From the NCBI GenBank assembly GCA_947462815.1, contig CANHQR010000033.1, positions 1 through 39,288 on the forward strand: a DNA stretch of 39,288 nucleotides, read 5' to 3'. The notes under the pieces were generated by a model. That model saw only the letters and a list, made by a program, of their open reading frames with translations, was not told the origin of the DNA and searched no databases. This document shows, piece after piece, positions 27,706 to 38,274 of this stretch. The position numbers were made by a program, and so were the translations under genes. How positions within the stretch are numbered: position 1 is the stretch's first letter; each line of letters opens with the position of its first letter. Source of the DNA: Pseudobdellovibrionaceae bacterium. GTDB lineage: Bacteria; Bdellovibrionota; Bdellovibrionia; Bdellovibrionales; JAMPXM01.

Positions 27706-28620
27706 ATGCTGCGCGTTTGGTATTCTGAAGATTTCACCTTGCAACTTCCCGAGGGACATCGATTCCCCATGCGGAAGTATCGTGATCTCCGCGAAGCCCT
27801 CGTCAATGCCTGTATCGTGAATGAGACAGAACTTTTTGAATCACCTGAGGCGACGCGCGACGAACTTCTTTTGGCTCATGATGCCGCGTATGTGGATGGA
27901 ATTCTTAGCGGTAGTCTACCTGAACGCGAATTGAAGCCCATCGGATTTCCTTGGTCACCCGGTCTTGTGCGACGCAGTCGACGAACTGTGGGCGGCGCTC
28001 TGGCCGCCTCACGTTGGGCCCTAGAGCATGGGATTGCCGGACAGCTGGCCGGGGGCACACACCATGCGCACCGAAATCGCGGCGGTGGATATTGTGTCTT
28101 CAATGATCAAGCCTGTGCGGCACTGCATCTGTTGCGTGAGTGTGCCGACAAAGTGCGCCGTGTGCTGATCGTCGATCTCGATGTTCACCAGGGAGATGGC
28201 ACCTCCAGCATTCTGCGAGGCCATGAACAAGTGTACATCTTGAGTTTACATGGAGAGCGAAACTACCCCTTTCGCAAAGTGGCCTCGACCGTCGATCGTG
28301 GCCTACCCGATGGCCTCACGGACATCGACTATATGAAAGTCCTGGATGAAGAACTGGATCGCGCCCTTGGCTTTCGACCTGACTTAATTTTGTATCAAGC
28401 TGGCGTGGACCCCCTGGCCTCGGATCGTTTGGGTAAACTCAGCCTCACCCATGAAGGCCTCAAACAGCGCGATCGGCGTGTCATCGGCTTCGCTCATCAA
28501 CTCAACATCCCGATTTCACTCGCCATGGGCGGAGGCTACGCCGAGCCCATCTCCGACACGGTGAGGGCCCATGTGGGGACCTATGAGGTGGTGCGGGAGT
28601 TCTGGCCCCGAATTCCCTAA
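27706..28620 (+). CDS. Histone deacetylase-fold amidohydrolase
   Basis: The 304-residue product belongs to the zinc-dependent HDAC/AcuC/acetylpolyamine amidohydrolase superfamily, of the compact HDAC11-like type. Visible active-site elements are the tandem histidines H119-H120 (GGTHHAHR), the zinc ligands D159 and H161 in DLDVHQGDGT and D235 in QAGVDPLASD, and Y278 in GGGY. The catalytic set is complete, so it should deacylate an N-acyl (possibly lysine or polyamine) substrate. HDAC11-type enzymes can remove long fatty acyl groups, which is worth noting beside a lipid locus. It lies 37 bases after the preceding gene and 120 bases before the lipid kinase gene. ATG 27706 has no clear ribosome binding site. 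Confidence 0.9.
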   Translation: MLRVWYSEDFTLQLPEGHRFPMRKYRDLREALVNACIVNETELFESPEATRDELLLAHDAAYVDGILSGSLPERELKPIGFPWSPGLVRRSRRTVGGALAASRWALEHGIAGQLAGGTHHAHRNRGGGYCVFNDQACAALHLLRECADKVRRVLIVDLDVHQGDGTSSILRGHEQVYILSLHGERNYPFRKVASTVDRGLPDGLTDIDYMKVLDEELDRALGFRPDLILYQAGVDPLASDRLGKLSLTHEGLKQRDRRVIGFAHQLNIPISLAMGGGYAEPISDTVRAHVGTYEVVREFWPRIP

Positions 28621-28740: not shown

Positions 28741-29751
28741 ATGCGCGTCGCTGTGTTTATCAATGGCAAAGCCGGAAAAGCCGATGCTCAACGCATCGAA
28801 GATGCGATTCGGCGCGCGCTCTTTCGCTGTGACACACATTTGTTTTTGCCCGAAGGCGTGAGTGAATTCCAAGAGCTGATTGTTCAGGAAAGTCAGACCG
28901 CCGACGCCATCATCGTCTGTGGCGGCGACGGCACACTGAATGTGGCCGTTCAGCCTTTGATGACAGATCCTCGTGTCACGCGCATTCCGCCGCTTCTGCC
29001 CTTGCCAATGGGCACAGCCAATGACTTAGCCAGCGAACTGGGAGTTTCGACGGTGAGGCTCGAGCGGGCGGCGCATCTCGTTCTCGAAAGCGATGCAAAG
29101 TCGATCGATGTGATCGAGGTACGAGCGGAAGGTCGATCTGTGTTCATGCTCACCAATGGCGGTTTAGGCATTGCAGCGGAGACGGCAGACTTGGCGAATC
29201 AGGTTCGACAATGGTTTGCGAATCGCGCGGAGTCGCAGGCATTAACCCAGCCTGTGTTTCGCGCCGGCCAAGATCTTGTCCGCCAGGCGGGCTCACGCAT
29301 TTACGAAATGCTCCTAGCAGGACAACTCATGAGCGGGCGGACCCGTCAATGGCTCAAAGGCTGGTGCGTGTCGATCGAACTCGAAAACGGCAAGCATATC
29401 GAAACCAGCGCTCCCTTCATCATGGTCAATAATCAGCCCGGTCTCGGTGGAAAATATGTTCCTGCTCCCCTCACATCGAACACCGACGGCACCTTCAACA
29501 TCATGCTGCTCGATTCGCCGCTCCTTCACCGCCAAGCACAAGCGCTCTTTGACATTCGCCGCGGCCGCTTACCTGATGAGGCTTACTGCCCTCGCTTCGA
29601 AACCTCAGCCGCTGTGTTCCGTTCGAAAGGCAAGGCACGCGATCTGACCTTCTTCGGCGACGGAGAAATTCTCCACAAGCAAGTTCGCGAGATTGAAGTG
29701 CGGTGCCGCAAACATGCGCTTCTGGTCATTGCGCCACAGGGTGCGCTATGA
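28741..29751 (+). CDS. Diacylglycerol/sphingosine kinase-family lipid kinase
   Basis: The 336-residue product has the DAGK catalytic-domain signature. GGDGT lies at 61-65 (ATP binding), followed by PMGTANDLA (89-97), a mid-protein NGGLGI, and the late FFGDGE that matches the conserved DGE region. YegS/DgkB-type enzymes phosphorylate diacylglycerol, sphingoid or other lipid alcohols at the inner face of the cytoplasmic membrane. Residues 150-210 are longer than in small members and the substrate cannot be assigned. GAGG lies four bases before ATG 28741. Its stop overlaps the next start (ATGA at 29748-29751), so it is translationally coupled to the SDR and through it to the acyl-reductase-like gene. 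Confidence 0.9.
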   Translation: MRVAVFINGKAGKADAQRIEDAIRRALFRCDTHLFLPEGVSEFQELIVQESQTADAIIVCGGDGTLNVAVQPLMTDPRVTRIPPLLPLPMGTANDLASELGVSTVRLERAAHLVLESDAKSIDVIEVRAEGRSVFMLTNGGLGIAAETADLANQVRQWFANRAESQALTQPVFRAGQDLVRQAGSRIYEMLLAGQLMSGRTRQWLKGWCVSIELENGKHIETSAPFIMVNNQPGLGGKYVPAPLTSNTDGTFNIMLLDSPLLHRQAQALFDIRRGRLPDEAYCPRFETSAAVFRSKGKARDLTFFGDGEILHKQVREIEVRCRKHALLVIAPQGAL

Positions 29752-30779
29752 GCTCGCTCTTGGTTACCGGAGGGACAGGCTTCCTCGGTCACTTCGTCCA
29801 ACAAGAAATTCAAAGACTCGGTCTCAAAGCCCGCTACCTCACTCGCAAACCGAGCTCGGCCCCTCAAAATCTCGTCGGCGATCTTTCGCGTTGGGACGCT
29901 GGTCTCGATCCCAACGAACTTCGCGATCAATTCTCGGGCCTGCTTCACATGGCTGGACTCTATGACCTACGTGTGGCTCGCGAAGATGCGTTTCTCGCCA
30001 ACGTGATTGGCACGCATACGGCGCTCGCTCTCGCCGAAAAATCGCGAATTCCTGTGTTTGTGCACATCTCGACGGTTGCCGCGACCATGAATCTCCCCCC
30101 GCAAGATTCTCCCATTCAGCCCGGTCAATTCAGTCCCGACGGGCCTTTTCCCGACCCCTATGCCGAAAGCAAAATTCACGCAGAAAAATTGGTCCGCTCC
30201 TGGCCCGGAGAATTTCCGAAGGTGCGATTGATCCTGCGTCCAGGAATCTTAGTCGGCGACACGCAAAATGGGCTCATTCATCGGATCGACGGTCCTTACC
30301 ACGCGCTCGATGCCTTTCGCCGATTGATTCGTGTCCTACGTGCATGGCGCGGTCCTCTGCTCCTCCCCGGTCGCGTGGAGACCCGAATTCCTCTCACGCC
30401 CGTCGATCGCGCGGCTTGGGCGATTGTGCAACTGACGCATGCGGCGCTCCTGCATGGCGAGCGCGGTCTGGCTTCGCTTTTTATCGCTCCGCCTCGTGGG
30501 CCAACAGCGCGCGAACTTTACACCAGCATTCTGCATCACCTCAGTCTCGACCTTGAAGTCCGACTAATCGACCATCAGTCCGCACCCAAATCCTTGCTGA
30601 AAACGGCCAGTGAAGTGATCGCCCACCTTCCGGGAGAGGAGCTCGAGTATCTTCTTGGACTTCCTGATCTCGATGTTTCGGCGACGACGGAGCGCCTGGG
30701 ACTCGACTGGTGCCCGGATTTTGCCAATTCCGCACCTCAGCTTTGGAGAGGCTACGATGCGTTCATACAAAATCGCTGA
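29748..30779 (+). CDS. NAD(P)-dependent extended SDR (epimerase/dehydratase-like)
   Basis: The 343-residue product has the extended-SDR cofactor motif GGTGFLG (8-14), a conserved S108/T109 (HISTVAA) and the catalytic YAESK (Y138, K142). The resemblance is to the dihydroflavonol reductase, 3-beta-hydroxysteroid dehydrogenase and fatty-acyl-reductase side of the family rather than sugar epimerases, so oxidation or reduction of a lipid-type alcohol or ketone is a reasonable guess. The C-terminal substrate domain (about 200-343) is not diagnostic. ATG 29748 overlaps the lipid kinase stop by four bases. Its own last 23 bases overlap the start of the next gene. The open frame from 29703 is within the kinase gene. 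Confidence 0.9.
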   Translation: MSSLLVTGGTGFLGHFVQQEIQRLGLKARYLTRKPSSAPQNLVGDLSRWDAGLDPNELRDQFSGLLHMAGLYDLRVAREDAFLANVIGTHTALALAEKSRIPVFVHISTVAATMNLPPQDSPIQPGQFSPDGPFPDPYAESKIHAEKLVRSWPGEFPKVRLILRPGILVGDTQNGLIHRIDGPYHALDAFRRLIRVLRAWRGPLLLPGRVETRIPLTPVDRAAWAIVQLTHAALLHGERGLASLFIAPPRGPTARELYTSILHHLSLDLEVRLIDHQSAPKSLLKTASEVIAHLPGEELEYLLGLPDLDVSATTERLGLDWCPDFANSAPQLWRGYDAFIQNR

Positions 30780-32919
30780 ACTGAGTTTCGGCTCTTCACG
30801 CTGGGATCATCTCACCCACTTTACAGCAGGTGAGGGCGAGTTTGAGCTTCAGCGCTTTGGCGTTGAGTACTCGGTCGATACACTCAAACGCATGATCGAG
30901 CGCCTCAGAGGCGAAGTCGACGCGATCTCGCTCACCAGTTTTCCATCGGAGATCCGCTTCCGAGATCGCGTTTACACCCACCGTCAAGCCCTCGACATTA
31001 TGACCACACCCACCTCGATTCCGCTCTGTAACGGCGAGCGAGTGCGCGAGCTCACAGAGATCGACGGTCTGGTTCACCTCATTCGCGAAGGCAGTATTTT
31101 TCCTCGCGACGGAATTTTCGTTCCCTTGGCACTCTTGCACATGGAAGCGGTTTCGCTGCTTCGGGAAAAGTTTGATGCACGTATCGGCTTCGGCGACGTG
31201 TTCGCAATTTTCAAGCAACCTTTGGTCGCCGAACCTTGGCCCTGGCTACTTGAACTCGCGAAGCTCGGCTTAGGCTTTGCCCAGCTTCGAGAGATGGGAG
31301 ATCTTGCACCGTCTCCCCGCACCGTGCGCGAGCAGCAAGCTTTAGAAAAACTGATCGGCGCCATGCGCGGCTATCGTTATATTTACGGCGACCCCTCTGA
31401 GATTATTTTATTTGCCATGAACGCCGAAGTCCTGGGTGGGGGCACCGACTTTGTACGTGGCAAGGAGATCATCACAACCACTTCCGATCCGCGAATGTTA
31501 GCTGAGCTCCGGCGTTTGGGTGCCTCGCACATTCATCGAATTTTCCCGGCAAGTTTTGAGGACTGGAGCCCTCGTCTCACCCACGCGAGTGCCGATGCCG
31601 TGCTTCGCCTGTTGAACGGCAAGTCCACGCCCCTTTCTCTGGAAGAGTGGCAAGATGTGCTCTCAGCACGCACGGAGATCACTCAAGAAACTAAGCGTTG
31701 GGTGATGACCGCACGTCCCAGCGTGCAAACTCGGCTCGCCGCGCGAGCCATCGGGCGCCGACGCAAACGTGCGGTCGAGCGAGAACCTGACTTTGCCTTC
31801 GTCGTTCACTCCCTATCTTACCGAGATCTCACCCGCGCTCCAGGGCTTAAGCTCATGCGCAAGTTACCCAAAAACTTACAGCCTCATCTGGAACGCGCCA
31901 CCTCGCATCTTCCCGGAATTGTTTACGGACGAGCCAGCGGTATTGTTTCCGAAGCCACCGGCCGCGAGATCACAGGACTCATCTACGGTCTCTTCGCCAC
32001 CCCGCGAGTCATGAAGGAAGATCCGCCCGAGGTCACATACGGGAAAATCGAGAAACTTTGTCATCATGCGGCCGATCACGGCGCGAAGATTATTGGCCTT
32101 GGCGCCTATACCAAAATTGTCGGAGATGCCGGAGCCACCATCAACCGCATGAGCCCCATCCCTGTTACGACGGGTAACTCGCTGAGCGCGAGCGCAACTC
32201 TTTGGGCTGTGCATGATGCTGTTCGCAAGATGCGCCTTCTTGAAGTTTCACCCCACAGCCGCCGCGTTCGCGGCACGGCAATGGTGATCGGCGCAACCGG
32301 CTCCATCGGCAAGGTTTCCGCCAAGCTCCTGGCCATGGTGTTTGAACGACTCGTACTCATCGCTCCTCGCATCGAGCGCCTCGAGGAACTGGCTCACGAA
32401 ATTCGTCAACTCGCACCCAGCTGTGAGATCCGCCTCTCCACACGGGCCAATGATTTTGCAGAAGAGTCTGATGTCATCGTCACGGCGACCAGCGCCTTCG
32501 ACCAGAAAGTTGTCGACATCCATAAACTGAAGCCTGGCGCCGTGGTTTGCGACTGTTCGCGGCCACTCGATTTCACTTTGGAGGATGCCATCGCCCGACC
32601 CGATGTCTTGTTTATCGAGTCCGGCGAGGTGGAGCTCCCGGGGGCAGAGAAACAGTTGGATTGCGACTTGGGCTTACCCGGCAAGGTCGTCTACGCGTGT
32701 CTCGGCGAAACCGCCTTGCTCGCTCTTGAAGAGCGATACGAGGCCTTCACCCTCGGCCGCGATCTCGACTGGCAGCGAGTCAAAGAAATCTACAAACTGG
32801 CCACGCGCCACGGCGTGAAACTGGCCGCCGTTCGCGGCCCGAGTGGCTTGATTTCAGATCGGGAAATTCAACTCTGCCGCGACTTAGCACTTCGTCGCCG
32901 AACTCTCACTCAGTCTTAA
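30757..32919 (+). CDS. Two-part protein: unidentified N-domain fused to acyl-ACP reductase-like domain
   Basis: The product has 720 residues. About 345-715 resembles cyanobacterial acyl-ACP reductase (COG5322-type; acyl-ACP to fatty aldehyde with NADPH). AADHGAKIIGLGAYTKIV and VTTGNSLSASATLWAV match its N-terminal substrate region. MVIGATGSIGKVSAKLLA carries the nucleotide motif G512-G518. VVYACLGETALLALEE aligns with the catalytic-cysteine segment (FACFAEA), making C648 the probable acyl-thioester cysteine. Residues 1-340 are not part of known acyl-ACP reductases and I cannot name them; they contain a short helix-rich stretch and a Gly-rich EVLGGGTDFVRG. ATG 30757 has GGAGAGG five bases upstream and overlaps the SDR gene by 23 bases. 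The product is most likely an aldehyde or a related reduced acyl intermediate. Confidence 0.82.
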   Translation: MRSYKIAELSFGSSRWDHLTHFTAGEGEFELQRFGVEYSVDTLKRMIERLRGEVDAISLTSFPSEIRFRDRVYTHRQALDIMTTPTSIPLCNGERVRELTEIDGLVHLIREGSIFPRDGIFVPLALLHMEAVSLLREKFDARIGFGDVFAIFKQPLVAEPWPWLLELAKLGLGFAQLREMGDLAPSPRTVREQQALEKLIGAMRGYRYIYGDPSEIILFAMNAEVLGGGTDFVRGKEIITTTSDPRMLAELRRLGASHIHRIFPASFEDWSPRLTHASADAVLRLLNGKSTPLSLEEWQDVLSARTEITQETKRWVMTARPSVQTRLAARAIGRRRKRAVEREPDFAFVVHSLSYRDLTRAPGLKLMRKLPKNLQPHLERATSHLPGIVYGRASGIVSEATGREITGLIYGLFATPRVMKEDPPEVTYGKIEKLCHHAADHGAKIIGLGAYTKIVGDAGATINRMSPIPVTTGNSLSASATLWAVHDAVRKMRLLEVSPHSRRVRGTAMVIGATGSIGKVSAKLLAMVFERLVLIAPRIERLEELAHEIRQLAPSCEIRLSTRANDFAEESDVIVTATSAFDQKVVDIHKLKPGAVVCDCSRPLDFTLEDAIARPDVLFIESGEVELPGAEKQLDCDLGLPGKVVYACLGETALLALEERYEAFTLGRDLDWQRVKEIYKLATRHGVKLAAVRGPSGLISDREIQLCRDLALRRRTLTQS

Positions 32920-32927
32920 GTCTGCCT

Positions 32928-34289
32928 TTAGAGGTTCGTACGGAGGAGCTGAGGAATCGACATTCGCACCAAACGTCGAATCGGCATGATACTGGCGATC
33001 AGCGTGGTGAGGGCCGGTAACATCAGCGCCTGTGCAAAGTGCGCCGGCTGAATCTCTAAGAAAATCAGAAACTGGCGGGTGATACCTGGCCCCGGTGGCA
33101 TGGGAATTCCACGCGCGAGTACGGTCGCGTTCAGTACGACAGCGACAGCGATTCCCAAGAGACCACCGAGCAATCCCAAGAGTGCACTCTCCACACTCAA
33201 GATCGCAAAGACCCGACGCCTTGATTCGCCATTGGCTCGGAGCGCGCCCACTTCGCCAGCTCGCTCAAACAGCCCCGTGGCGATTGTGTTGAAAATCCCC
33301 AGCGCCACGATGAGCAACATGATACTGCGAATGAACGAAAACTGCGCGTCCAAGAACTCCACGGCGTTACGGTAGTAGACCTTGTCTAATTCATCAAAGG
33401 GCTCAGCATCGACTTCGGGGATCGTCTCGCGAATTGCCGCCGCAACCTTCGGCCAGTCTTCAACTCCACCGGTCGCGAGCGAAAAGAGCTCGACCCTTTG
33501 CGTATCGATGAGGCTTTGGGCCGTGGGAAGTTCCATTCTGAAAAAGGTGTCATCAAATTCTTTTGAGCCTGTATGAAAGATGCCGGTCACAGCCAGTTCC
33601 ACGCCGTTGAGCTGTCCGTTGACCGTCTGAGCGAGAATCGTCAGAGGTTCTCCAACCTTCACATTGAGGGAATCTGCAAGACCCTTCCCCAATATCAATC
33701 CTGTCTTGGCATCACCGAGCGACCCAAGATCTCCGCCAGCCACGAAGTTCATGGCAGAGAAGAACTTGGATTCACGTTCACTCAACACACCTTCCCCACG
33801 TCCCGCCAGCGTGATGCCGCCTTTCATCAAGAACGCGTAAAAGCTCACCCTCGGAAAAACTTCTTGAACTTCTGGTACACGCTTGAGTCGCTCCTCGACC
33901 GTCAAATTCGGCGAGCTGGCCACTTCCGGGGCGGAGACACCCGGTGCGTCGACGGACTGACCTTGGCCCGACGTGGGCGAAGATTGAAGCGCATTCTCCA
34001 GCCAAAGTTTCCAAGGCTCCTCCACCTTCTTTTGAAGATAGCCCTTGGGGAAGACCTGTCCGTGTCCGTAACGAACGCGAATGGTATTCTCGCGATACTG
34101 ATTCATGATGCCTTCATTGAATCCTTGATAAATCAATAGCCCCGCAGCACCAAAAGCCACGGTGAAAAGACTCGCGAAGGTCCGACGCTTGTTTCTGAAC
34201 AAGCTTCGCCACGCGAGATGAATCCAAGTCGTGATGGTGACGCCCATTCGAGTTCGGCTCGTATTTGAGGACAAAGTGCGATATTCCAC
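32928..34289 (-). CDS. FtsX/LolE-type ABC transporter permease
   Basis: The 453-residue product has the MacB/FtsX/LolCE topology. One N-terminal transmembrane helix (about 38-56, after RNKRRTFASL) is followed by a large periplasmic domain (about 57-315). Three C-terminal helices (about 315-340, 365-392 and 415-437) enclose the GEVGALRANGESRRRVF coupling segment. This class extracts lipids or lipoproteins from the inner membrane, or acts mechanically from the periplasmic side, rather than moving solutes through a pore. It has no fused ATPase, so it is not MacB itself. The start is GTG 34289, directly after the ATPase stop, with GGAGGG as ribosome binding site. Only one permease is present, which suggests a homodimer. 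It converges on the acyl-reductase-like gene, with a gap of nine bases. Confidence 0.92.
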   Translation of the reverse strand: MEYRTLSSNTSRTRMGVTITTWIHLAWRSLFRNKRRTFASLFTVAFGAAGLLIYQGFNEGIMNQYRENTIRVRYGHGQVFPKGYLQKKVEEPWKLWLENALQSSPTSGQGQSVDAPGVSAPEVASSPNLTVEERLKRVPEVQEVFPRVSFYAFLMKGGITLAGRGEGVLSERESKFFSAMNFVAGGDLGSLGDAKTGLILGKGLADSLNVKVGEPLTILAQTVNGQLNGVELAVTGIFHTGSKEFDDTFFRMELPTAQSLIDTQRVELFSLATGGVEDWPKVAAAIRETIPEVDAEPFDELDKVYYRNAVEFLDAQFSFIRSIMLLIVALGIFNTIATGLFERAGEVGALRANGESRRRVFAILSVESALLGLLGGLLGIAVAVVLNATVLARGIPMPPGPGITRQFLIFLEIQPAHFAQALMLPALTTLIASIMPIRRLVRMSIPQLLRTNL

Positions 34290-35048
34290 TTAGCCCTCCC
34301 CGCCCGGAGCCGGATCTGCGCCACGGCCCTTTGAAGTAACTAAGCGCCCTTGATGTAGCATGTGAACGCTTTGAGCATAGCTGAGCAGATGATGATCGTG
34401 AGTTGAGAACACAAAACTCACACCTTCCTTTTCGCGAAGCTCCTGAAAGGCTGCAACAATGGTATCAGATGTATCTCGATCGAGATTGGCCGTCGGCTCA
34501 TCAGCCAGAATCACCTTAGGTCTCTTGGCAAGAGCGCGTGCGATCGCCACACGTTGTCGCTGACCACCGGAAAGTTCTCGCGGAAGTTTATGCGCGTGTT
34601 CGACGAGGCCCACGCGAGCCAAGGTCTCCATGCCTCGATCGCGGGATTCGGCCCGACTTAAGCCTAGCGACGGCAAGAAGTAGGTCGTATTCTCAATCAC
34701 GGTTAGGGTCGGCAGAAGAAAGAAGGCCTGGAAAACAAAGCCAAGCTCACGCAGACGCAAGTCCTCAAGCTCGCGCTCACTCAGTTGGCGAACGTCACGG
34801 CCGACAAAGTTCACGCGACCTTTTTGCGGTGGCTCCAAAAGCCCCAGAATGTTGAGGAGCGTGGTCTTGCCACTACCGCTCGGACCCACAAGACAGGTCA
34901 TAATCCCGGCTTCAACACGCAGATCTATGCCCTTGAGAACTTCAGCTCGCGCTGCACCTTCGCCATAAGCGAAGTGCAAATTCTCGGTCACAATGACCGA
35001 TTCGGACCTAGTGAGATGAGTCGAGGAGGATGCTGAGTGGGGTGTCAC
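34290..35048 (-). CDS. LolD/MacB-type ABC transporter ATP-binding protein
   Basis: The 252-residue product is a complete ABC ATPase: Walker A GPSGSGKTT (55-63), Q-loop FVFQAFFLLPTLTV, signature LSGGQRQRVAIARAL, Walker B VILADEPTANLD and switch histidine FSTHDH. The spacing and sequence belong to the LolD/MacB/FtsE class that partners FtsX-type permeases. Its stop abuts the permease start, so the two form one transporter. The start is uncertain: GTG 35048 has no clear ribosome binding site, and the first 18 residues are Ser/Thr-rich and may not be translated. It is divergent from the LolA-like gene, with under 70 bases between starts, so the two units probably share a control region. Confidence 0.93.
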   Translation of the reverse strand: MTPHSASSSTHLTRSESVIVTENLHFAYGEGAARAEVLKGIDLRVEAGIMTCLVGPSGSGKTTLLNILGLLEPPQKGRVNFVGRDVRQLSERELEDLRLRELGFVFQAFFLLPTLTVIENTTYFLPSLGLSRAESRDRGMETLARVGLVEHAHKLPRELSGGQRQRVAIARALAKRPKVILADEPTANLDRDTSDTIVAAFQELREKEGVSFVFSTHDHHLLSYAQSVHMLHQGRLVTSKGRGADPAPGGEG

Positions 35049-35114
35049 GATTTCGAAGTCTAGCCCATGCGTCGACGCTTATCCAATCAGATTGCTTCGG
35101 GTAAGCTGAGGGGC

Positions 35115-35936
35115 ATGGAAAAAATCCTCGACGGTCTTCGCAACCTGCGCCGGCCTGTTCTATTTTGTCTTCCTACAACCGGCATCGTTTTCGGCCTCTC
35201 GATCCTGGCAATTGGGGCCGGTGCAAACCCGAATTCCGCTCCCGCCACAAAGTCGGCTCAATCAGCATCTCAAAAGGCCAGCTCCTTGGCATCCATCGAT
35301 GCCGAAAAGCTCCTCGCCCGCGCCGATCAAGTTCGCAATCCCGCCGAAAGCTATGTCATGCGCGTGCAGGTCAAGACGGATTCCAGCGATCAAGAATTCG
35401 AGGTTTCACTCAAAGGCCAAGACAAAACCCTGATTGTCGCGAAGAAGCCTGCGAGCGATATCGGTCGCAATATGCTCATGCTGGATCGGCAGATCTTTGC
35501 CTATATCCCCAATCTCAAACGGACCACGGCGTTGAGTCTTCAGTACAAACTTTCAGGACAGGTCGCCAATGGCGACATAGCCCGCACGCGCTGGTCAGGC
35601 GACTACACGCCTTCCCTCGAATCCCTGGAAGGGGATCTCGCAATCCTCTTTTTAAAGGGCGCAAAGCCCAATTTGACCTATCAGAACCTACGCCTTTGGG
35701 TGAACAAGAAGAACGCGCACCCCGACCGCGCGGAGTTTCTTGGTTTGGACGGAAAGACACTCCTCAAGCGGGCTCGCTACACAGATTACAAAAGCCTCGC
35801 CGGGGCCTTGCGCCCGACTCGACTTGAGATTCAAGATCCAGCAGGAAAGACTTCGACCATTAGCATTCTCAGCATGCAGGCTCGCGAGTTCTCGGACTCT
35901 CTGTTTGCAGAATCCAACTTGGAGCGAGCAAGATGA
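35115..35936 (+). CDS. LolA-like periplasmic carrier (outer-membrane lipoprotein-sorting protein family)
   Basis: The 273-residue product has a signal peptide (hydrophobic about 20-36, cleavage near GAGA/NPN). The mature domain belongs to the LolA-like family often annotated as outer membrane lipoprotein-sorting protein. EKLLARADQVRNPAESYVMRV, then VSLKGQDKTLIVAKKPASDIGRNML, the LMLDRQIFAYIPNLKR stretch and GDIARTRWSGDYT are typical. The family's half-barrel can shield a lipid in the periplasm. ATG 35115 follows TGAGGGG closely; the frame is open to 35067 but gives an unnaturally long n-region. Its stop overlaps the next start (ATGA). The position beside an FtsX-type transporter and an outer-membrane barrel suggests a dedicated lipid shuttle. 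Confidence 0.87.
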   Translation: MEKILDGLRNLRRPVLFCLPTTGIVFGLSILAIGAGANPNSAPATKSAQSASQKASSLASIDAEKLLARADQVRNPAESYVMRVQVKTDSSDQEFEVSLKGQDKTLIVAKKPASDIGRNMLMLDRQIFAYIPNLKRTTALSLQYKLSGQVANGDIARTRWSGDYTPSLESLEGDLAILFLKGAKPNLTYQNLRLWVNKKNAHPDRAEFLGLDGKTLLKRARYTDYKSLAGALRPTRLEIQDPAGKTSTISILSMQAREFSDSLFAESNLERAR

Positions 35937-37183
35937 ACTCGAATTGGAGAGGCCGCGTTCAAAGCTCCCTCTCCGCCCAAAATCACAATCAGAATCACAA
36001 TCAGAATCACAATCAGGATCGCACTCGGGAGCTCATTCGAGATCTCGTCCCTTCACTGGCTCTGACCTTGGCGCTGACCTTGGCTCTGGCTGGCTTGCCA
36101 ACTTCAGCACAAGCCCAACTCGCCCACCGAATTGAGTATGTTCCGCGGCTTGACCATATTCAAACCTGGCGATCCGACACCCAAGCTCCAGATAACTTTG
36201 CACAACGCCTTTTCCTCAAAGGCGCATGGGATACGGCCGGCGCCATAGGCCCACATCCTTTGCGATTGCGATTTGAGGGATTTACAGAGCGAGAAACGAC
36301 GGGACGACGCGAAGACCGGGAGGAAAGCGATCTTCAAGAAGCCTGGCTGGATACGGGATTTAAAAACCTCAGCCTGCGATTCGGGCGACAGCCGATTCGC
36401 TGGAGCCAATCTTGGACACTGCCATCTGTCGACTATTTTACGGGACGCCGACTGCACCGATTATTCATCGATCCCCTACCCGAGCAGCTCTCTCACCCCG
36501 ATGCTGTCCGGATTTTGTATGCAACGAGCGAAGGTGAACTTGAGCTCGTGCGAATTTTTCGTTCGAGTCCCACTCGCCAGCCAGCTCTCCTTAGTCGCAT
36601 CGATCGGCGCGACGATCAGCAATGGGGGTTTCGCGGCAACGCCAAATTCGGCGCATTCAACTTGAGCGCCATGGCGCGAACCCTCGAGGTCAGCTCAGCT
36701 TCTCGCTCGGACGATCGAAGAAACGACTTTGGCCTGCAAGCCTCTTGGTCTTGGGATGAATTCGTACTGAAGACCGAAATGGGCGGCGGTCAAATTGAAT
36801 CCCAAACCCAGTCGCAGTTTCTGATCTTAGGTGTCGACTATTTTAAAGGTGATTGGAGTTTCACGCCGCAAGTCACTCTCTGGAGAGATCGTACACTCAC
36901 GTCAGATCGGGACGAACAACAGCTCTATCTGCCACTTCGATGGCTGAAGGAAAAGTGGTCCGCCGAGCTCGAAGGTCTTCACACCGTCGGCAAACGCGAT
37001 CACTACATCAACATCAGCATCACTCGCGAGGTCGGTACCAATTTCCTGAGTGGGCTCACCTTGACAGCCTTTTTTCAAGACTACCTGGGTGATCCCACCC
37101 GTTTGCTCGGTTTCTATGAACGTCAGACTCGCGGACAACTCTTCGGACTTCGTCTCAACTACCAAGGAGGGCTCGAGCTATGA
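35933..37183 (+). CDS. Outer-membrane beta-barrel protein with extended, repeat-containing signal peptide
   Basis: The 416-residue product has an unusual leader. A 38-residue hydrophilic n-region contains NHNQ three times (17-28). The hydrophobic LALTLALTLALAGL core follows, with a cleavage site near AQA/QL (61). The mature part reads as alternating beta strands with frequent aromatic and charged residues (SLRFGRQPIRWSQSW, FNLSAMARTLEV, FVLKTEMGGGQIE, WSFTPQVTLWRD), typical of a barrel of about 14-18 strands. It resembles outer-membrane proteins found beside LolA-like and MacB-like genes, but no named family fits. The start overlaps the LolA-like stop as ATGA and its end overlaps the DUF3419 start, so all are coupled. 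It could be the outer-membrane receiver of the lipid. Confidence 0.85.
   Translation: MNSNWRGRVQSSLSAQNHNQNHNQNHNQDRTRELIRDLVPSLALTLALTLALAGLPTSAQAQLAHRIEYVPRLDHIQTWRSDTQAPDNFAQRLFLKGAWDTAGAIGPHPLRLRFEGFTERETTGRREDREESDLQEAWLDTGFKNLSLRFGRQPIRWSQSWTLPSVDYFTGRRLHRLFIDPLPEQLSHPDAVRILYATSEGELELVRIFRSSPTRQPALLSRIDRRDDQQWGFRGNAKFGAFNLSAMARTLEVSSASRSDDRRNDFGLQASWSWDEFVLKTEMGGGQIESQTQSQFLILGVDYFKGDWSFTPQVTLWRDRTLTSDRDEQQLYLPLRWLKEKWSAELEGLHTVGKRDHYINISITREVGTNFLSGLTLTAFFQDYLGDPTRLLGFYERQTRGQLFGLRLNYQGGLEL
35981..36016 (+). repeat. Three perfect 12-bp tandem repeats in a signal peptide
   Basis: AATCACAATCAG occurs three times in a row at 35981, 35993 and 36005, encoding NHNQ each time. It is in frame in the n-region of the outer-membrane protein leader. 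A degenerate continuation follows. Confidence 0.9.
36062..36085 (+). repeat. Two 12-bp repeats in the hydrophobic core of the same signal peptide
   Basis: CTGACCTTGGCG (36062-36073) and CTGACCTTGGCT (36074-36085) encode LTLA twice. The unit length equals that of the NHNQ repeat upstream, and copy-number change would alter the length of the h-region without shifting frame. Confidence 0.7.
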
Positions 37184-38274
37184 GCCAGTACTTTGAAAAT
37201 CTCAACTATACGCTTTCCAACGAAGACACGCGGATCGAATATCGAATCTGCCGCGAAGGCTTGAGTCGTGTCTTTTGCATTGGCGGAAGTGGCGCCCGCG
37301 TACTTCCAATATTGGCGAAGCGACCTGAAACACTCGACATCGTCGATCTCTCACAAGAGCAGCTGGCTCTCATCGAGCTGCGAATCTCCGCAGCTCGACA
37401 GCTCAATCGTGATGAGTTTCTCTTCTTTCTGGGCTATCGCGGTGGCATTGCAGGCGATGGAGTCGGTGAGGACCATCGATCGACGCTGTTTGATCAGCTC
37501 GAACTTTCCGCCGCTACGCGGGCCTTTTGGTCAGATCGCGAGGCCGCGTGGCGGCCTCGCGGCTTCATACTTCTCGGCCGCTGGGAGGGCCATTTCCAGA
37601 AACTAGGGAGAGTCTTTCGAGATGTGCTAAGAATTGATAGCCGCAAGATTTTTGCAGCTCACTCCCTGGATGAGCAACGCGTCCTCTTCAAGGAGCACTT
37701 TAAACCCCTCGTCTTCAAAGCCTTCATTAAAATCGCGGCCAGTGAATTCGTGTTCAATCGCTTTTTGTATAAGGGTCATTTCTCCGGCCGTAGTGAAACA
37801 CGTACCGAAAGCCGATCGCCTTCGACCTTCATCGAAGAGGAGTTTACTCGACTCTTTCAGCAGACTTTAGTGCGAAAGAACTATTTTCTTCAGGTCTTGT
37901 TCCTTGGTGAAATCGCCCATGAGGAGGCCTTACCGTTAGAGTGCCGCGTGGATGTGTTGGACCAGGTCAAAAAGGCAAAAACGCAAATTCATTATCGAAA
38001 AGAAAATCTCCTCGATGTGATTAACAAGGACCACTTCGAGTTTCTTTCCCTCAGCGACACGATCTCCTATCTTCCCAACGAGGCCGCACACCGTTTGCTG
38101 ACCGACCTGCCATCGGCCACTCCGCCCGGAGCGCGAGCTGTGATTCGTTCATTTTTACGCCGACCGCCGACCTATGAAACTCGCGGATGGAAGCGTCTGG
38201 AGTCTGAAGAAGCTTGGGCCAAAGCTCTGGATACCACCGGAGTTTACGAGTTCGATGTATTTGAAAAGCTTTGA
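37180..38274 (+). CDS. DUF3419/BtaA-like S-adenosylmethionine:3-amino-3-carboxypropyl transferase
   Basis: The 364-residue product matches the DUF3419 family, whose characterised member BtaA transfers the 3-amino-3-carboxypropyl group of SAM to diacylglycerol in betaine-lipid synthesis. Diagnostic segments are LNYTLSNEDTRIEYRI (8-23), the SAM-binding FCIGGSGARVL (32-42) and VDLSQEQLALIELR (55-68) with an acidic residue (D56) after the strand. FLGYRGG follows, then the late FLSLSDTISYLP motif. No BtaB-like N-methyltransferase is nearby, so the product may stay unmethylated or be processed otherwise, and the acceptor need not be diacylglycerol. ATG 37180 overlaps the previous stop as ATGA. It is the only cytoplasmic enzyme in an operon of envelope proteins. 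Confidence 0.87.
   Translation: MSQYFENLNYTLSNEDTRIEYRICREGLSRVFCIGGSGARVLPILAKRPETLDIVDLSQEQLALIELRISAARQLNRDEFLFFLGYRGGIAGDGVGEDHRSTLFDQLELSAATRAFWSDREAAWRPRGFILLGRWEGHFQKLGRVFRDVLRIDSRKIFAAHSLDEQRVLFKEHFKPLVFKAFIKIAASEFVFNRFLYKGHFSGRSETRTESRSPSTFIEEEFTRLFQQTLVRKNYFLQVLFLGEIAHEEALPLECRVDVLDQVKKAKTQIHYRKENLLDVINKDHFEFLSLSDTISYLPNEAAHRLLTDLPSATPPGARAVIRSFLRRPPTYETRGWKRLESEEAWAKALDTTGVYEFDVFEKL

Follow-up and report, generated by a model that had tools for sequence, protein, structure and literature searches.

The 720-aa protein encoded at positions 30757 to 32919 (+ strand) of the contig analyzed here (CANHQR010000033.1 of a Pseudobdellovibrionaceae bacterium, 39,288 nt, hereafter "the window") is a reductase of the acyl-ACP reductase (AAR)/PigE type with a new architecture, and the advance lies in the identification of its N-terminal half and of the partnership between the two halves. 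Our favored reading, which we hold with moderate confidence, is that the protein represents, in fused form, a two-protein, cysteine-dependent, NAD(P)H-using thioester-to-aldehyde reductase, with a built-in partner that is probably non-catalytic.

Gene Structure and Distribution of the Fusion

The open reading frame begins with an ATG and has full-length relatives at 48–67% identity within the order. A longer frame of 754 aa with a TTG start is also available, but the ATG at 30757 was taken as the start because the starts of the relatives align with it. Relatives in the same order as the host genome (3.43 Mb, 96% complete), Bdellovibrionales, include members of a family other than that of the window. 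In the predicted model, the N-half consists of about 305 residues followed by a low-confidence linker of about 35 residues. We delimit, all on the + strand, an N-domain (residues 1–305, 30757..31671), a linker (residues 306–343, 31672..31785, with pLDDT about 45–56 over residues 300–340) and a C-domain (residues 344–720, 31786..32916). The N-domain of the window protein also carries a seven-residue insertion, approximately NAEVLGG (window 31420–31440, about residues 222–228), that is found in none of the close relatives aligned.

Of 240 Bdellovibrionota genomes, about 65 likewise have a frame of the size of the fusion, and this recurrence rules out an assembly or frame artefact. In the tree, the fused C-halves group together in a single clade with support 100/100, as would be expected if the fusion arose once; one member of this clade (L066) has the C-half without N. 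A first contig scan with the window protein as query returned no matches. On plasmids, the window protein found matches to its C-half only, mostly aminotransferase-AAR fusions, and a stand-alone N query found none.

The C-Terminal Half Is Related to Aldehyde-Forming Reductases

Searched as a single sequence against the PDB, the C-half matched PigE (4ppm, E = 4e-26) and AAR (6jzq/6jzu, E = 4e-8) over residues 397–690, and a profile of the enlarged C-half family raised these matches to 7e-63 and 8e-42, respectively. These values lie far above chance level. Modelled at full length, the protein has AAR as its best fold match (E = 3e-18, target TM 0.78). Cysteine C648 (32698..32700, + strand), the predicted acyl-enzyme residue, falls in the column of AAR C294, where the C294S entry 6jzz has a serine; it is kept in all 51 fusions and in 98% of the Bacillota homologues. 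The motifs named in a sequence-only reading of the same DNA, which had also called the frame at 30757–32919, were all found: HG-x5-LGAYTKI at residues 441–454, TGN, GATGSIG, and YACLGE with C648. On the + strand, GLGAYTKI (residues 447–454, 32095..32118), TGN (residues 472–474, 32170..32178) and the nucleotide-binding motif GATGSIG (residues 512–518, 32290..32310) are invariant or nearly so across 51 homologues; H441, which opens the first motif, is not conserved among them. Across both families, a glycine-rich motif of the GxxG type occurs in 98 of 99 C sequences and in none of 124 N sequences.

These results support the C-half as an AAR-like reductase that would form aldehydes, on the strength of whole-domain homology and of the aligned cysteine and nucleotide motif. 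The family assignment of the sequence-only reading thus holds in its AAR-like part, but the closest characterized relatives are PigE and TamH domains and not the cyanobacterial AAR. Both NCBIfam matches of the C-half lie below their cut-offs: the PigE model NF053554 (E = 6.7e-49) reaches 166.9 bits against 850 and aligns over profile positions 2–338 only, and the long-chain AAR equivalog TIGR04058 (E = 2.2e-12) reaches 47.0 bits against 449.7. No Aminotran_3 domain was detected in the window protein, which is therefore not a class III aminotransferase fusion of the PigE kind.

Automatic annotation suggests another identity, that of a shikimate/quinate or amino-acid dehydrogenase, since Shikimate_DH (PF01488) scores 53.5 bits against a cut-off of 24.3 on the nucleotide-binding part of a Bacillota homologue. 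In the window protein the same model stays below this gathering cut-off (20.2 bits), and it covers only the shared Rossmann part, whereas the matches over the whole domain are to PigE and AAR. The best fold matches are likewise AAR and TAD, with shikimate dehydrogenase far lower, and the invariant cysteine aligns with C294. The sequence-only reading had itself named, as a result that would overturn it, a dehydrogenase placement with no alignment of C648 to the AAR cysteine; because C648 aligns with C294, the profile test came out against that placement. We thus consider a dehydrogenase highly improbable and retain the AAR-like reductase.

The characterized relatives illustrate the chemistry to be expected. 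The acyl group in AAR is bound to C294 as a thioester and the hydride comes from NADPH (PMC7089970), PigE reduces a thioester prior to transamination (PMC8341465), and the TamH domain requires an ACP-bound substrate (PMC9594044). The N-terminal domain of PigE and the C-terminal domain of TamH (prodigiosin and tambjamine biosynthesis; NF053554) are the best sequence relatives of the C-half, with which they share the catalytic cysteine and an alignment over the whole domain, and both convert a thioester to an aldehyde (PMC8341465; PMC9594044). Their fusion partner is a class III aminotransferase, whereas that of the C-half is the N-domain, and in the alignment part of the GATGSIG motif is missing from PigE. 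PigE/TamH-like proteins with an AAR domain also occur in several Bdellovibrionota genomes, as frames of 839–953 codons (L017/L092, L090, L091, L093, and L100) that are distinct from the fusion. The cyanobacterial AAR (TIGR04058; 6jzq, 6jzu, 6jzy) has a common fold with the C-half, the C294–C648 correspondence and the nucleotide motif, and ping-pong chemistry is expected, but it has no N-domain. The host genome also lacks the partner of AAR, aldehyde-deformylating oxygenase: its absence from the window, as previously read, extends to the whole genome (96% complete), in which PF11266 had no match while the control was found in Synechococcus elongatus. For both halves, the next-best fold match after AAR is TAD (9e4s, 9e56), the terminal domain of an assembly-line protein of carmabin biosynthesis, in which a cysteine is linked to dephospho-CoA in 9e56; its sequence relation is weak.

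The N-Terminal Half Belongs to a Widespread Stand-Alone Family

Searches with the N-half, including searches with alignments, found no match in Pfam, NCBIfam, PHROGs, or PDB sequences. A stand-alone sequence of Bacillota type, used as a search probe only, gave 360 loci, from which 80 proteins were fetched. A profile built from Bdellovibrionota sequences alone matches all 80 of these stand-alone proteins over their full length (E = 1e-37 to 1e-54), and in the reverse search a mostly Bacillota profile finds the N-half of the window protein at E = 2e-16. The matches in both directions place the N-half in this family, and from these profiles we conclude that a widespread family of stand-alone proteins of about 300 aa is present here in fused form. 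The earlier statement that this half is not found in the cyanobacterial enzyme stands, but the half can no longer be called unassigned. The family occurs in Bacillota and other groups, including Eremiobacterota, and has no Pfam or NCBIfam model; we take its common database name to be "quinate 5-dehydrogenase". A search of open papers found no characterized member. Two Bdellovibrionota genomes that carry the fusion encode extra stand-alone N proteins (L049:987–1940 and L050:980–1915) with different neighbors.

Mean identity of N is 57% in Bacillota and 26% in the fusions, in which C reaches 53%, so the N-half has diverged fast once fused. The equivalents of N277 and E280 are invariant in Bacillota, and D55, D147, and P264 are kept in both phyla. 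No conserved cysteine column was found in N, and all 124 N sequences are without the glycine-rich motif. A profile-profile comparison of N with C is collinear but not significant; in that alignment, the stretch of N that appears to correspond to the cysteine helix is mostly Ser/Ala in the fusions and has an invariant Asn in Bacillota.

We also compared an AF2 model of the N-half alone (pLDDT 89, pTM 0.88) with fold libraries, as had been proposed. The top VIA-align match was AAR (6jzq; Z 11.1, 236 residues, rmsd 5.2, 9% identity). The AAR and TAD rows, at Z 9.5–11.1 (TAD, Z 10.1), extend over nearly the whole domain and come ahead of unrelated folds (Z 8–9), the best row by only 1–3, and the Foldseek TM is only about 0.4. 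On these figures the fold relation of N to C is a modest one, seen in structure. The N-half is probably, though not provably, a degenerate AAR-like fold set beside an intact AAR-like domain, as judged from predicted structures.

N and C Are Encoded by Separate, Adjacent Genes in Bacillota and Beyond

In 47 of the 80 N loci, the next downstream gene encodes a C-half homologue of about 362 aa (E down to 1e-98), and the gene order, N then C, is the same as in the fusion. A C homologue lies close by in nine further loci, and 14 of the 19 N loci without C nearby have a match elsewhere in the genome. In three loci from Eremiobacterota (L159, L170, and L178), C is located upstream of N. An independent sample of 249 Bacillota genomes gave N in 187 and C in 159, with 156 of the 159 C-genomes encoding both (Fisher p = 3e-30 for co-occurrence, with kinship not corrected for), and N directly upstream of a stand-alone C in 101 of 112 places. 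The fusion in the predatory kin of Bdellovibrio and these adjacent genes in hundreds of other bacteria point, by their sequence relationships and order, to a two-part enzyme system. Taken together, the linkage, the fusion and the lost catalytic motifs suggest that N is a non-catalytic partner.

The Bacillota pair sits between dusB and greA-lysS together with an HTH gene, and no lipid genes adjoin it. The stand-alone N, a full-length homologue of the fused N-half, is a separate protein there, in many cases with the HTH regulator upstream. This small HTH protein (about 180 aa, HTH_3 plus a C-terminal part without assignment) precedes N in 48 of the 80 loci (for example, L154:9449–9994, L191–L193, L195, L197, L199, L200, and other Bacillota loci) and may be a regulator of N. 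In one locus (L200:4040–5110) a degenerate C-half homologue (E = 1e-4) lies directly downstream of N, perhaps because C is being lost or changed there.

Some Bacillota genomes encode N only. In 29 of these 31 genomes no C was found even at E = 1e-6, and no common replacement partner was found among them, the slot of C being closed or holding other genes, while the HTH neighbor often stays with N. These genomes and the retained neighbor indicate that N may work without C and may have its own role. Furthermore, two Bacillota loci (L139:10938–13844 and L157:10818–13550) encode a TamH-like protein, in which an AAR-like domain is preceded by a class III aminotransferase, adjoining a stand-alone N, so N is not simply the enzyme that receives the aldehyde.

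N could accordingly be a second enzyme in its own right, for example one acting on the acyl group or the aldehyde, or a signaling component that senses either of these for the HTH regulator. The frequent persistence of N with the HTH gene after the loss of C is in keeping with such a role, as are the N-only genomes and the strong conservation in Bacillota, with its mean identity of 57%, the invariant N277 and E280, and D55, D147, and P264 in both phyla. On the other hand, N has neither a nucleotide motif nor a conserved cysteine, diverges rapidly once fused and, where C is present, nearly always lies beside it or in the same genome. An independent function of N is, in our view, rather unlikely, and a non-catalytic partner of the reductase remains our preferred reading.

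The Fusion Lies in a Conserved Lipid-Type Operon

Across Bdellovibrionota the fusion lies in a conserved operon of lipid type, composed of a lipid kinase, an SDR, the fusion and usually a DUF3419 gene. In the window, a YegS/DAGK-type lipid kinase (28741..29751, + strand; PF00781, E = 4.5e-20) overlaps, at an ATGA, an extended SDR of the NAD_binding_4, fatty acyl/thioester reductase-like group (29748..30779, + strand; PF07993, E = 3.2e-20; TIGR01746), which in turn overlaps the fusion by 23 nt. Both genes are upstream of the fusion in all 16 relatives with enough sequence, so the coupling to an SDR and a lipid kinase suggested from the window alone extends across the phylum. A histone-deacetylase-like protein is encoded upstream of the operon (window 27706–28620) and was seen in one close relative (L054) only.

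Downstream, a LolE-like permease and a LolD-like ATPase (32928..35048, – strand) are often beside the fusion, on a strand that varies between relatives. These are followed, on the + strand, by a LolA-like protein (35067..35936; PF17131, E = 1.9e-28) and an outer-membrane porin-like protein with weak porin hits (35933..37183), both conserved neighbors in the nearer families, and by a protein of the DUF3419, BtaA-like aminocarboxypropyl transferase family (37180..38274; PF11899, E = 1.5e-48). The DUF3419 gene is near the fusion in 14 of 16 loci and directly beside it in distant families; its product gave no useful match in the PDB. In the nearer families, these genes (window 32928–38274) accompany the fusion and resemble a dedicated set for lipid synthesis and export. 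Judging by this gene content, one may reasonably guess that the operon makes a lipid of the membrane or the surface, although the Bacillota pair has no lipid genes beside it. Nothing on the operon or on aldehyde lipids of Bdellovibrio was found in a search of open papers.

The overlapping SDR raises the question of whether the thioester is instead reduced fully to the alcohol, by the fusion alone or with the SDR, the true product being a fatty alcohol for an ether- or wax-type lipid. The assignment of this SDR to a fatty acyl/thioester reductase-like group (PF07993, TIGR01746) and its retention in 16 of 16 loci would suit such a pathway, but AAR, PigE, and TamH all stop at the aldehyde (PMC7089970; PMC8341465; PMC9594044). 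We therefore judge full reduction to be improbable, and the mechanism proposed below ends at the aldehyde.

Proposed Mechanism

In the fused enzyme, an acyl group carried on pantetheine (acyl-ACP or acyl-CoA) would first be transferred to C648 of the C-domain, forming a thioester; a hydride from NAD(P)H in the GATGSIG site would then release the aldehyde, in a ping-pong cycle as in AAR. The N-domain is most likely a non-catalytic partner for carrier docking, stabilizing or gating, and the separate N protein of Bacillota would play the same part for its separate reductase. In Bdellovibrionota, the aldehyde would probably be incorporated into a lipid whose synthesis also involves the co-transcribed SDR, the lipid kinase, and usually the DUF3419/BtaA-like transferase.

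A broader and more tentative proposal makes N an AAR-like pseudo-enzyme with a dedicated role as subunit (or a sensor of acyl groups or aldehydes) that defines a two-component thioester reductase across Bacillota, Eremiobacterota, and other groups. It might have been fused once, in the ancestor of Bdellovibrionota, where it would feed an undescribed membrane lipid together with the BtaA-like transferase and the lipid kinase.

The two-part system of N and reductase seems not to have been described, according to a search of open papers. For a family that has no Pfam or NCBIfam model and is present in 187 of 249 sampled Bacillota genomes, the results supply a specific partner and a role that can be tested. 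Biotechnology has an interest in AAR-like reductases, and an accessory subunit would add something new to the way in which they are assembled. For the predatory bacteria, the results mark a conserved operon for a probable membrane lipid not previously known.
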